A stretch of DNA of 64,000 nt from a methanotrophic endosymbiont of Bathymodiolus puteoserpentis (Logatchev) (GTDB lineage Bacteria; Pseudomonadota; Gammaproteobacteria; Methylococcales; Methylomonadaceae). The notes below the pieces were generated by a model that did no database searches, had not been told where the DNA came from, and saw nothing but the letters and a program-made list of their open reading frames with translations. Each line of letters opens with the position of its first letter. The stretch's first letter is position 1. The position numbers and the translations under genes were made by a program. The stretch lies in the NCBI RefSeq assembly GCF_900128525.1, contig NZ_FQTQ01000059.1, positions 1 to 64,000 on the forward strand. Reading direction: 5' to 3'. Shown piece by piece: positions 54,564-58,656 of the stretch.

Positions 54564-57311
54564 GTGAAAGAAATTTTACGTAAAATCCAAGATAAAAAAA
54601 GGCAAGTAAATAATTTACTGAGGAGTTTTACAACCTCAATACTAAACCAATATACTACTGTCTTGTTTATTCTTGCTATCAGTATAGGTATATCTTATCT
54701 TGTTGTAATATATGATTTAAAAAATCAAGAAGGAAATGCTACCCTCATTCAGTTAAGTACAGAACAAGGTCAACTTGTTCAAGCCATTAACTTTTATTCT
54801 ACAGTATTACTTTCCTCTAATAATGAGTTAACGATTCGCAAAGCCAAAGGACATATATCCAAAAACGTTTCCCGCTTAAAAGAAATACATACATCCTTAA
54901 AAAGTGGTGACCGTTTTATTCGCGAGGGAACCCGAATAGTACAAGTCCGAGGCCTGTTAGATGATGATCTAAGCAAACTCTTCTTTCAGGGCGACCCTTC
55001 ACTCGATGACAGAATGCGTAATTACACGGGATTATTACGTGATTTACAACATACCCCTCTTAATAAGCTAAAGAGCAAAAAGGCAGACTTCAAGAAACTT
55101 TATTATACAATGACACCTCCCTTACTAGATTCCTTAAGTAAGGTAAGTAGTTATTATAAAAGACAAACTGAGGCAATGCTATCTAACGCTAAAAGCAAGC
55201 AGAACTTTGTGTTTATGATAAACCTTAGCGTTTTAACATTACTAGGGATGGGATTATTACAACCCTTAGTTAAACGCCTACAGGATAGTATGCTTAAGGC
55301 CGAATCAGAAAAAAACTTTGCCGATAATGTAATTAATACAGCTCAAGCTTTTATTATCGGTCTTGATAGCTCAGCTAATGTCGTCTTATTTAACGAATAT
55401 GCAGAAGAAAACACCGGCTGGGCTAAAGAAGAGGTGTTAGGAAATAATTTTTTTGAAACCTTTATTCCTAATAGCGAGCAAGCAGCATTAAAAACTTTAT
55501 TCACTGATATGATGAGTGGAGCGGTAGAATTTTCTGATGAAATCGAAACGCAAGTTCAAGTCAGTACCGGTGAGATTATTAATGTTATTTGGCATACCAC
55601 TACAATTTTAGATATCAAAACCAAGCAACCAGTGATGTTTTTAGCAACGGGTAGTGATATTACCGAACGTAAACAGGCAGAAGAAAATCTCCAGCGTGTC
55701 CATGCTGAAATGGAAGTTATTACCCACCGTTTACAAGGTGAAGTAAATCTAGCTGCGACTTTACAGCGTTCTATTTTGCCAGATCCTCATGTTGAATTAC
55801 CTGGCATACAAGGGTTTGCAAACCTGCTAACCTCTAGTGAGGTCGGTGGGGACTATTATGATTACTATAAAGTTGCTGGGCATCAAAGTATTATCCTGAT
55901 TGGTGATGTAAGTGGTCATGGTGTTGCGGCTGGAACCATGGTAAGTGCCGCGAAAGCTGGGGTTTATCCGCTGATTCACGAAGGAATCACTAATCCATCC
56001 GAAATTTTAAACCTATTAAACGAAACTCTGTTAATGACAGCGCAACAATCGCTGTTAATGACCATGAACTGTTTAACGCTAGATGCACGCACAGGAAAAT
56101 TACAATTTGCTAATGCGGGTCATGTACTACCTTATTTATGGCGTAATCATGAACAACACTGGGAGATGTTAGAAGCCTCAGGTTTACCTCTCGGTAAAAA
56201 TATTGACTCAAACTATGCGGAATCTGCAATAGAAATTGAAATGGAAGTCGGTGATAGGCTATTCTTATTTACCGATGGCCTGGTTGAAGAAGAATCTCCT
56301 TCAGGAGAAGCATTCGGTTATGACCGCCTAGAAGATATTTTAAGTCAGTGTGGCGATGTCGATGCAGAAACTATTAAAGACTATTTAATGGAAGCTTTAG
56401 CCATTCATTGTGAAACAGAAAGTTTTGGTGACGACGTAAGTATCATGGTACTCAACCATAGTGATCGTCTCACATCAGAGGCCAGCAATACAGAAGCTGA
56501 TATCAGTGATATTATCCGCATTACTGAAAGTTTCTACCGTCAAGGTGACCACCCGATACCACGTATTTCCAGAGAGTATGTTGTCTTTATCGCAGAGCAA
56601 CAATTTGCAGACCTACTAGACCGTTTAAGTAAAGATGGTATCTGTCGAATTCTCCCTAAATACAGTGATTTTTGTGAACAAATCGGTTGGAATCACTTAT
56701 TAAGCCAACACCATGAGACACCTGATGATGATTTATTCGTCTTAATGCCACATTTACCTCAGCATAGACAATTTCAGCTATCTCATACTGACGATAAGCT
56801 GTATGTCATGGAAGAAATCGTTTCCTGGATTTCTGATCAAGGCACTGTTCCGCAAGAGCATATCGATGCACTTGTCGTTATTCTCGATGAAATGTCTGAG
56901 AACAGCCTTTATGCTGCGCCAAGAGATGGTAAAGGAATCGCTTACTATGCAAAAGGAGAGTCACGTGAATTATCCGAGCATGAAGAGGTACGTATTGATA
57001 TTGCCTTGAGTGATGATCGATTGGGGCTAATGATTACTGATAACTGGGGAACATTACCTGCTTCTGTCTTTTTACAGAAAATGGCTCATGCCATGGATGA
57101 GGGAGTAGAAGCTGGTGTCGGTGGTGCTGGCCTATATATGATGTGGCGCTTATCACACTACTTCCAGATTCGCGTCCATCCGCAACATAGGACACAAGTT
57201 ACCACTTTATGGGATTTAAAGCAGCCCGTAAATATGGATATTAATTCAGGATTTCAATTTATTCATCATAGTCAATATGAGCCATTAGCTCAAAATAGAG
57301 AGAGGGTTTAA
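54564..57311 (+). CDS. Membrane sensor with PAS, PP2C (SpoIIE) phosphatase and HATPase domains
   Basis: The 915-residue protein has a membrane helix near 31-52, an extracytoplasmic helical region to about 210, and a second helix near 213-236. A PAS domain follows (about 255-370). The PP2C/SpoIIE phosphatase domain (about 395-625) has SEVGGDYYDYY, LIGDVSGHGVAAG and SFGDDVSIMVL, which carry the metal-binding aspartates. A linker of unknown type spans 640-790. The C-terminus is a HATPase of the anti-sigma kinase kind, with N-box LDEMSENSLYAAP, DNWG and GVGGAGLYMMWRL. Thus one chain holds phosphatase and kinase modules. The next gene, four bases later, encodes a STAS protein, the expected substrate of both. 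Confidence 0.85.
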   Translation: MKEILRKIQDKKRQVNNLLRSFTTSILNQYTTVLFILAISIGISYLVVIYDLKNQEGNATLIQLSTEQGQLVQAINFYSTVLLSSNNELTIRKAKGHISKNVSRLKEIHTSLKSGDRFIREGTRIVQVRGLLDDDLSKLFFQGDPSLDDRMRNYTGLLRDLQHTPLNKLKSKKADFKKLYYTMTPPLLDSLSKVSSYYKRQTEAMLSNAKSKQNFVFMINLSVLTLLGMGLLQPLVKRLQDSMLKAESEKNFADNVINTAQAFIIGLDSSANVVLFNEYAEENTGWAKEEVLGNNFFETFIPNSEQAALKTLFTDMMSGAVEFSDEIETQVQVSTGEIINVIWHTTTILDIKTKQPVMFLATGSDITERKQAEENLQRVHAEMEVITHRLQGEVNLAATLQRSILPDPHVELPGIQGFANLLTSSEVGGDYYDYYKVAGHQSIILIGDVSGHGVAAGTMVSAAKAGVYPLIHEGITNPSEILNLLNETLLMTAQQSLLMTMNCLTLDARTGKLQFANAGHVLPYLWRNHEQHWEMLEASGLPLGKNIDSNYAESAIEIEMEVGDRLFLFTDGLVEEESPSGEAFGYDRLEDILSQCGDVDAETIKDYLMEALAIHCETESFGDDVSIMVLNHSDRLTSEASNTEADISDIIRITESFYRQGDHPIPRISREYVVFIAEQQFADLLDRLSKDGICRILPKYSDFCEQIGWNHLLSQHHETPDDDLFVLMPHLPQHRQFQLSHTDDKLYVMEEIVSWISDQGTVPQEHIDALVVILDEMSENSLYAAPRDGKGIAYYAKGESRELSEHEEVRIDIALSDDRLGLMITDNWGTLPASVFLQKMAHAMDEGVEAGVGGAGLYMMWRLSHYFQIRVHPQHRTQVTTLWDLKQPVNMDINSGFQFIHHSQYEPLAQNRERV

Positions 57312-57314
57312 CTC

Positions 57315-58460
57315 ATGGCAATTTCAGATATTCTTACCATAAAAAAACTTTCTGACAGCAACAACACTTACTGTTTTGATTGTGCCGGTTCTATTGACGT
57401 TAACGCTAAAATACCGTTGGAGACTTTGCTTATTGTTCCCGCAAAAGCGCGTGTTATTTTAGAATTTAAAAAAATAGAGCGAGTTAATTCGATGGGCTTA
57501 TCGCTACTCCTAAAAATATTTGAGGAATGGGAAAAAAAGCAAATTATCATTGAAGTTAAAGATCTAAACCGCATGGTGAATATGCTATTTAAGATTACTG
57601 GACTAGGCCGCTTTATACAAGGCGGCAATGATATAACAAAAACAGGCGAGAAAAATACCATCAACCCACAAGCCCCCATCCATGCAAATGCAAACAAATC
57701 AGCTGAAGGCTTAAGTAAAAAATCACATATCAAAAAGAAATTGAATTTTGTTGCCAGCTTACAAACGGGGCAACAACTAACTGGCTGGTATTTATTTAAT
57801 ACTTATTTACAAAGGCGCATGCAAAAAGCCATACACTTTGATCAATCACAAGATGTATTGAACGAATCCAGTATTGATATTCTATTTGCCAAACCTTTTG
57901 AAGCCTGCTCCATGATTAAGCGGCGCGGTTTTGTCCCCATTATGCGCCCTATTGCAGAGGCCGATGAAGTTATTATTTTAACGCGTGCAGATGATGAGCG
58001 CGAACTGGCAGACTTTAAACAAGCCAACGTCGTTACTGCATCAGAAAATAGTTTTGTGTATATATTAGGGCGCTTCTTATGCGATGAAAGTGAGCTAGAT
58101 TCATCTAAGTTTAATTTCACTTTCTCTGGTAATGAAATCAAATCCTTACAAGTGCTAATTAAAAAGAAAGCAGACTTATTGTTTATGCTAAAGAAAACCT
58201 ATGAAGGTTTATCTTCTTTTAGCAAAAAGAATGTCCGTAAACTTGATGAGAGCGCAACTGATTTTGCATTTCATCTATTCTCCATCGCTCCAGACTTAGA
58301 ACAAGAGGGTAAAGCCTTGCATACCATTCTTAAAGAAATGTCTGAAGATGATAAAGGCAAAGAAATTTTAAAAGATATAGAGTTTCAAGGCTGGTGCCCT
58401 GTTGAAGAGGGAGAGCTTAAAATGCTGACAATGGTTTTTGACCGTTATGTGAACGAGTAG
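57315..58460 (+). CDS. STAS-domain protein with unknown C-terminal region
   Basis: Residues 1-105 form a STAS (anti-sigma factor antagonist) domain: ARVILEFKKIERVNSMGLSLLLKI (in part), with the serine of the [DN]-S-x-G phosphorylation motif present at about 58. The remaining 275 residues are not recognised; a predicted helical part near 300-345 ends in GWCPVEEGELKML. The gene starts four bases after the phosphatase/kinase gene, so a partner-switching circuit is inferred: dephosphorylation would activate the STAS domain. The output partner is not visible in the window. Confidence 0.75.
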   Translation: MAISDILTIKKLSDSNNTYCFDCAGSIDVNAKIPLETLLIVPAKARVILEFKKIERVNSMGLSLLLKIFEEWEKKQIIIEVKDLNRMVNMLFKITGLGRFIQGGNDITKTGEKNTINPQAPIHANANKSAEGLSKKSHIKKKLNFVASLQTGQQLTGWYLFNTYLQRRMQKAIHFDQSQDVLNESSIDILFAKPFEACSMIKRRGFVPIMRPIAEADEVIILTRADDERELADFKQANVVTASENSFVYILGRFLCDESELDSSKFNFTFSGNEIKSLQVLIKKKADLLFMLKKTYEGLSSFSKKNVRKLDESATDFAFHLFSIAPDLEQEGKALHTILKEMSEDDKGKEILKDIEFQGWCPVEEGELKMLTMVFDRYVNE

Positions 58461-58623
58461 TAAAAGAGAGCTAAAAACCAAGGGACTGTCGGTAATTAAG
58501 ACACTACCATTTTTCGGAAGGTACAAACATGCACCCTTCTCATTCAATACAAGGCCTTCATAAACCAGTTAGTTCAATGGTCGACTAATGTCGACTTTAA
58601 CATTGTTCATTAAGTATAATCAG

Positions 58624-58656
58624 CGGTGACTTTCTTTATGAAAGTCACCGTTTTTT
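58624..58656 (+). terminator. Rho-independent terminator after the STAS gene
   Basis: The arms cggtgactttc and gaaagtcaccg (11 base pairs) enclose a 5-base loop and are followed by six T. It closes the phosphatase-STAS operon. Confidence 0.9.

Follow-up and report, generated by a model that had tools for sequence, protein, structure and literature searches.

Where does a partner switch send its signal when the neighbouring genes offer no obvious target? The question is raised by two genes at positions 54564-58460 of a 64,000-nucleotide stretch of DNA (the window; positions 1 to 64,000, forward strand, of contig NZ_FQTQ01000059.1, NCBI RefSeq assembly GCF_900128525.1) from a methanotrophic endosymbiont of Bathymodiolus puteoserpentis (Logatchev), order Methylococcales. 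The first gene encodes a membrane sensor that carries PAS, PP2C phosphatase and HATPase kinase domains in one chain, and the second encodes a STAS protein fused to a PhnD-type binding-protein domain (the STAS-PhnD protein, or fusion). We propose that the pair forms a membrane partner switch with a non-sigma output, in which the STAS-PhnD protein would feed a GTPase system resembling the Group 3 MglA/MglB systems, a reading that, taken as a whole, we place just short of an even chance. Its parts differ in strength. The switch core (kinase/phosphatase sensor plus STAS partner), as predicted from sequence, is well supported; genomic context suggests the GTPase system as its target; and the kinase and phosphatase activities, the phosphoserine at Ser59 of the STAS domain and the direction of the effect are predicted from conserved sequence features.

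The sensor and its STAS partner

The features on which the argument draws are the following.

54564..57311, + strand: membrane sensor gene, PAS-PP2C-HATPase, 915 amino acids (open reading frame, Pfam)
54654..54710, + strand: membrane segment 1, about residues 31-49 (hydropathy peak within a hydrophobic stretch of about residues 25-53)
55203..55271, + strand: membrane segment 2, about residues 214-236 (hydropathy)
55323..55661, + strand: PAS domain, residues 254-366 (PF00989, 43.0 bits, cut-off 22.6)
55881..56456, + strand: SpoIIE-type PP2C phosphatase domain, residues 440-631 (Pfam, 134.5 bits, cut-off 25)
56481..56783, + strand: inter-domain segment, about residues 640-740 (modelled as alpha/beta; without a listed Pfam family)
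56811..57200, + strand: predicted HATPase (RsbW/SpoIIAB-like) kinase domain, residues 750-879 (HATPase_c_2, 18.8 bits, below the cut-off of 27.4)
57315..58460, + strand: STAS-PhnD fusion gene, 381 amino acids (open reading frame, Pfam)
57372..57620, + strand: STAS domain, residues 20-102 (Pfam, 27.3 bits, cut-off 22.6)
57489..57491, + strand: codon of Ser59, N-S-M-G-L motif, predicted phospho-acceptor (conservation)
57624..57728, + strand: linker, residues 104-138 (low model confidence, predicted local distance difference test (pLDDT) below 50)
57738..58454, + strand: PhnD-type binding-protein fold without export signal, residues 142-380 (PF12974, fold matches)

The gene pair was confirmed as two co-directional open reading frames on the + strand, the sensor first (with a GTG start preceded by AAGGAG) and the STAS protein second, with 3 bases between the stop of the one and the start of the other rather than the four given in the original prediction. 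The architecture that had been described there, a self-contained partner-switch pair of a membrane sensor with PAS, PP2C and HATPase domains and a STAS gene directly behind it, stands; no REC domain was listed by Pfam in the sensor. In the predicted model, the region between the two membrane segments is mostly helical.

The phosphatase assignment is based on sequence conservation and fold. D448, D571 and D624, together with D430 just upstream of the domain, are invariant in 18/18 aligned sensors (an alignment that includes CBS-type and PilJ-containing relatives and from which L126, with a stop inside its coordinates, was dropped), and we take these four residues to be the metal ligands. The predicted fold matches the PP2C domain of SiaA (Z 27.1) in a structure comparison that covered mainly residues 399-637 of the sensor model; this model has a predicted template modelling score (pTM) of 0.40 and was not used for interfaces.

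The kinase assignment requires more discussion. HATPase_c_2 does not reach the Pfam cut-off in any of the six sensors scanned, scoring 17.4 to 22.7 bits in three of them and going unlisted in the other three, which counts against the assignment. The domain is assigned instead because E776, N780, D826, G829, G851, G853, G854 and G856 are invariant in 18/18 aligned sensors and because residues 401-885 of the model align with the RsbU+RsbW structure of Rv1364c (3ke6; Z 24.3, 330 aligned residues, root-mean-square deviation (rmsd) 12.9, a value that mixes both domains and comes from the sole two-domain match behind the HATPase fold). The catalytic and ATP-binding roles of these residues are presumed from SpoIIAB. 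That is, the sensor kinase is RsbW-like and lies outside Pfam's curated family membership, and the loss of catalytic residues in homologues, which would have spoken against the original prediction, was not seen at either the PP2C or the HATPase positions in the 18 sensors. The scores below the cut-off could also mean that the HATPase is inactive and that the sensor merely dephosphorylates a STAS protein phosphorylated by another kinase; given the invariant E776, N780 and glycine-rich boxes and a structure alignment that reaches across the RsbW domain of 3ke6, we consider this very improbable. The roughly 100-residue segment between the two domains has invariant residues of its own (G692, R695, Q715, H716 and D723).

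On the side of the partner, Ser59 is invariant in 28/28 and 27/27 rows of two overlapping alignments, and the N-S-M-G-L motif recurs in 10 STAS domains of 8 further proteins (one of which is already in the 27-row alignment), a set that extends to tandem copies and to a genome from outside the order. Ser59 aligns with the D-S-T-G serine of RsbV, presumably the phospho-acceptor of that protein, although the match is weak (E 0.12). Matches to STAS structures in a sequence search of the PDB were weak as well (best E 0.064), and the protein scores 31.6 bits against the NCBIfam antagonist model TIGR00377, below the cut-off of 53.45. Two tandem STAS domains, with N-S-M-G-L in each, are found in the STAS-PhnD proteins of L081:5972-7546 and L083 (genome G084, from about 6000), both of which adjoin CBS-type sensors.

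The pairing of sensor and fusion is conserved beyond chance. Among 101 related genomes, the C-terminal part of the sensor and the fusion are present together in the identical 25 genomes (22 with complete fusions and 3 with fusions cut by contig ends; a fusion was scored as STAS plus PhnD, or as a piece at a contig end with 40% identity or more, and genomes unlisted in a search were scored as having no match), and the sensor lies upstream of the fusion wherever the sequence of the locus includes the upstream side. Order-wide, where a best E-value of 1e-50 or below defined the fusion, it is found in 65 of 311 genomes. A single genome outside the order (G271) matches over the length of STAS-PhnD among 369 genomes of the class (E 1e-8), with a CBS-type sensor upstream of its fusion, and a search of 398 genomes of the phylum (E 1e-30) returned a full-length match in the endosymbiont's own genome only, three others matching the PhnD part alone. 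The closest named relative of the STAS-PhnD protein (89% identical) is in a Methyloprofundus record, and the remaining 14 named matches are, going by their titles, from methanotrophs of the same order (Methylococcales). Other operon types pair a STAS-PhnD protein with a CBS-domain or a PilJ-domain sensor. The sensor relative at L086:2409-5294 has a PilJ domain as its N-terminal input, hinting at exchangeable inputs ahead of a constant PP2C-HATPase part.

The combination of both enzymes in one chain is already known. Rv1364c of Mycobacterium tuberculosis combines an RsbU with an RsbW domain in a single chain, like the window sensor; its STAS domain is, we presume, part of the same chain, whereas that of the window is separate and fused to PhnD. 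SypE of Vibrio fischeri resembles the window pair as a kinase/phosphatase with a STAS partner, SypA, with what we take to be a different domain order that includes a receiver, and with SypA presumably being a STAS domain only. HsbR-HsbA of Pseudomonas aeruginosa and CrsR-CrsA of Shewanella oneidensis share with the window pair the presence of PP2C and HATPase in one chain; HsbR has a receiver domain where the window sensor has membrane segments and a PAS domain, and the partners in these systems are STAS-only, whereas the STAS domain of the window is fused to PhnD. According to the available text of PMC6482189, HsbR and CrsR combine PP2C with a kinase/anti-sigma domain in one chain and act on an anti-sigma factor antagonist; the outputs given there are FlgM, RpoS and HsbD, and a PhnD domain is not described in that part of the source. 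The available part of PMC8256260 describes SypE as a dual serine kinase/phosphatase acting on the STAS serine, with the target of SypA unknown. Hence, the statement of the original prediction that phosphatase and kinase normally lie on separate proteins is contradicted by HsbR and CrsR (PMC6482189), SypE (PMC8256260), Rv1364c (3ke6) and, in the endosymbiont itself, a CrsR-like gene.

This last gene and a STAS gene form a pair at L145:9340-11365 (contig C190), where they close a cluster of chemotaxis genes; they encode a REC-PP2C-HATPase protein (HATPase_c_2 35.5 bits, above the cut-off of 27.4) and a 101-amino-acid STAS protein, respectively. The spacing between PP2C and HATPase is shorter in the former than in the window sensor. 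According to the available text of PMC9855816, RpoS regulation in Shewanella could involve Che1, and the endosymbiont's chemotaxis-cluster CrsA/CrsR-like pair may, by analogy, parallel it. Orthology of the window sensor with HsbR/CrsR was considered and rejected, the significant alignment with the own CrsR-like protein being limited to PP2C (25% identity).

These comparisons bear on whether the window pair might be an ordinary anti-sigma switch of the HsbR/CrsR type, in which either the HATPase would sequester a sigma factor (RpoS, for example) or the STAS-PhnD protein would target an anti-sigma factor, with the PhnD part as a stabilising or localising appendage. Such systems have an equivalent one-chain enzyme pair with an adjoining STAS gene, and CrsR sequesters RpoS as described in the part of PMC6482189 available. 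We nonetheless judge this possibility improbable: a CrsR/CrsA-like pair is already present in the genome, the sensor's alignment with the CrsR-like protein covers PP2C, no sigma-factor gene was recognised by eye among the open reading frames neighbouring the window pair, and many invariant residues are kept in the PhnD part.

The PhnD-type domain and the GTPase cassette

The original prediction had treated the 275 residues behind the STAS domain as unassigned and as the possible output. The extension is still the likely output site, but it does belong to a known family: PF12974 (Phosphonate-bd) matches residues 151-364 with 78.1 bits (cut-off 27; E 8.5e-22). The predicted model of the protein (pLDDT 81, pTM 0.67) consists of the STAS part, the linker and a bilobal domain (about residues 137-381), the best fold match of which is XAC2383 (Z 24.9, rmsd 2.6, 241 aligned residues), followed by ArrX (Z 23.5) and PtxB (Z 23.2); a PhnD profile search of the PDB returned 7t1m and ArrX, both weak. 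The fold is thus shared with AioX/ArrX and PhnD/PtxB, but those proteins are periplasmic, whereas the window protein is fused to STAS and has no export signal. Neither a signal peptide nor a membrane segment is indicated by hydropathy, there being no hydrophobic segment in the protein; because of this, and because the kinase and phosphatase are cytoplasmic, the STAS-PhnD protein is presumably cytoplasmic too. Phosphonate transport was rejected on account of the absent export signal and the lack of a recognised transporter gene nearby (no ABC-transporter gene was recognised by eye among 15 open reading frames around the STAS-PhnD gene).

A binding-protein fold could, of course, still bind. Under such a two-input switch, the cytoplasmic PhnD domain would bind a small intracellular ligand that gates phosphorylation or release of the STAS domain, the output would be the HATPase or some other partner, and the link to the GTPase cassette described below would reflect merely shared PhnD ancestry. 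The complete bilobal fold of the model is consistent with this view, as are 15 columns (W158, N162, P194, E218 and H320 among them) that are invariant in an alignment of 11 PhnD domains from fusions with 6 free ones. The known ligands may be less likely, as the S-T-S loop of Escherichia coli PhnD falls in a gap, albeit in a profile alignment of low probability (hhalign, prob 6.5, E 0.0057); S127 and T128 of the mature E. coli protein, in its phosphonate loop, are presumably ligand contacts. The PhnD-like AioX offers a precedent, being thought to be the ligand sensor for the histidine kinase AioS (available part of PMC5908839). On balance, we regard the ligand-gated alternative as rather unlikely, for reasons that include the linkage and control data given in the next section.

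What led us to favor a GTPase output is the company kept by free-standing PhnD proteins. In the endosymbiont's own genome, a seven-gene row at L074:4412-9266 (contig C63) consists, in order, of c2 (weak TPR), c3 (no family), a 178-amino-acid Ras-like GTPase (c4), c5 (no family), a Roadblock/LC7 protein, a PAS protein and a free PhnD protein of 248 amino acids without export signal. The GTPase matches the Ras family with 27.0 bits (cut-off 21.6) and the Roadblock protein matches Robl_LC7 with 63.1 bits (cut-off 23); in the PDB, the former has weak Ras-family/MglA matches (best E 5.8e-4, MglA 0.0015) and the latter matches Roadblock structures with E-values down to 4e-27 (CvnB5 1e-10). Free PhnD adjoins Roadblock and/or PAS genes in 28 of the 31 genomes examined, the c4 GTPase is also near it in most of the longer stretches, and the cassette row recurs with gaps. 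A globin-like gene is inserted into the cassette in L034, L067 and L133, and a second Roadblock/LC7 protein of the own genome (G000:C92:40587-40826) is distant from the cassette.

Fused and free PhnD domains form separate groups. In a tree of 61 domains (5 of 66 having been dropped as fragments or near-copies), 35 fused domains lie on one side of a single branch (support 100/99) and 26 free ones lie opposite. A direct origin of the fusion from the free PhnD of the cassette was not supported, these being separate groups with unsure deep branching (long branches meeting). The free PhnD-like proteins of L078:5906-7140 (G126), L077 (G271) and L087 (G378) form a tree branch of their own; in L078, a 128-amino-acid protein without NCBIfam match lies upstream of the PhnD-like gene.

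Co-occurrence and linkage of fusion and GTPase

The distribution of the GTPase follows that of the fusion closely. In the set of 101 genomes, the GTPase is present in 25/25 genomes with the fusion vs. 29/76 of the others (Fisher p 8e-9, with genomes treated as independent despite their kinship), and within the endosymbiont's genus alone it is present in 6/6 vs. 5/12 (p 0.04). Order-wide, the corresponding numbers are 61/65 vs. 79/246, with the GTPase of G1000 being a fragment (81% identity), and the one fusion genome outside the order, G271, has the GTPase as well (61% identity). A PhnD match, fused or free (E 0.001, fragments included), is present in all 54 GTPase genomes of the 101-genome set, two more genomes having PhnD alone.

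As a control, we used the CrsR-like gene, found in 26 of the 101 genomes (possibly an underestimate, as 13 candidates were scored per genome). The GTPase accompanies it in 17/26 genomes vs. 37/75 without it (p 0.18), and within the own genus in 5/6 vs. 6/12 (p 0.32); nor is the CrsR-like gene significantly associated with the fusion (6/26 vs. 19/75).

In a few genomes, the two systems are also physically linked. G034 has a complete cassette into which the operon is inserted, with c5 on one side and the Roadblock gene on the other. On one strand of G062, the sensor and fusion genes are followed directly by c2, c3, the GTPase gene, c5 and the Roadblock gene, and the remaining 3 kb of the contig hold no PAS or free PhnD match; G069 shows the same order until its contig breaks off at c5. 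G061 similarly has a cassette with no PAS or PhnD match behind it, its fusion being on another contig. The earlier observation that no partner is adjacent holds for the window; in these three other genomes, the operon sits in or beside a small-GTPase cassette. Shared PhnD ancestry alone, as the ligand-gated alternative has it, leaves unexplained both this linkage in two lineages and the contrast with the CrsR-like control.

Several observations weigh against the GTPase as the target. Only 3 of the 65 fusion genomes, representing two lineages, show linkage (both places are listed in 59 of the 65 and were compared by eye), and none was seen in the window or in the available sequence of 15 named loci. 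In the remaining genomes with both places listed, fusion and GTPase are separated by more than 100 kb or by a contig boundary, many pairs by the latter in draft assemblies, where they could lie at any distance from each other. The GTPase is found without the fusion in the 79 genomes counted above; conversely, the fusion genomes G1001 (99% complete), G1010 (98%), G1021 (90%) and G1045 (74%) have no GTPase match and G1002 (76% complete) has weaker matches only. The Fisher tests, as stated, count related genomes as independent. Finally, the separate groups of fused and free PhnD share only 25-31% identity, and the free PhnD proteins that score best against the fused profile, those of G126, G271 and G378, have no adjoining cassette gene (a GTPase of 58-63% identity is located elsewhere in each of these genomes).

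A terminator-like hairpin follows the pair in the window; six such hairpins were found in the region vs. a shuffle mean of 3.9.

58622..58652, + strand: terminator-like hairpin, 13 pairs, 3' of both genes (hairpin scan)

Proposed mechanism and its place among known systems

How might such a switch work? The input would be received by the periplasmic helical region of the sensor and by its cytoplasmic PAS domain, and would set the balance between HATPase kinase and PP2C phosphatase. The HATPase would phosphorylate Ser59 of the co-encoded STAS protein and PP2C would dephosphorylate it, so that STAS-PhnD would be held by the HATPase in one phosphorylation state and released in the other; this first half of the mechanism is modelled on the established biology of partner switches (HsbR-HsbA, CrsR-CrsA). 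Once released, STAS-PhnD may act through its PhnD domain on the GTPase system, where it would take the place of the cassette's free PhnD protein or compete with it. More specifically, and with somewhat greater reserve, we suggest a serine-phosphorylation switch on a Ras-like GTPase in which a cytoplasmic binding-protein fold would be the interchangeable adaptor, used either as PAS plus free PhnD or as kinase/phosphatase plus STAS-PhnD.

In actinobacterial conservons, too, a HATPase sensor partners a GTPase; in the present case, a STAS protein would stand between them. By gene content, the cassette is a candidate Group 3 MglA system: its GTPase, Roadblock protein and c3 (no Pfam match) fit the description of these systems, which comprise, in the available text of PMC4316618, a GTPase, a Roadblock protein and a conserved unknown protein predicted to be receiver-like plus winged helix. 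The Group 3 section of that source mentions no PhnD, PAS or STAS partners, and its main text, as available, does not contain 'phosphonate' or 'pas'. No report of a STAS-PhnD fusion or of a STAS-GTPase tie was found among the matches listed in the openly licensed literature. What appears to be new here is the STAS-PhnD fusion and its tie to a small-GTPase cassette, and not the one-chain enzyme pair.

The significance of this tie lies in two gaps that it may help to close. Some STAS proteins, such as SypA, have no known target, and the inputs and outputs of Group 3 MglA systems are likewise unidentified in the available text of PMC4316618. A fusion that ties STAS to an MglA-type GTPase names concrete candidate partners for both and, if our reading is true, the binding-protein fold would be an intracellular signalling module.

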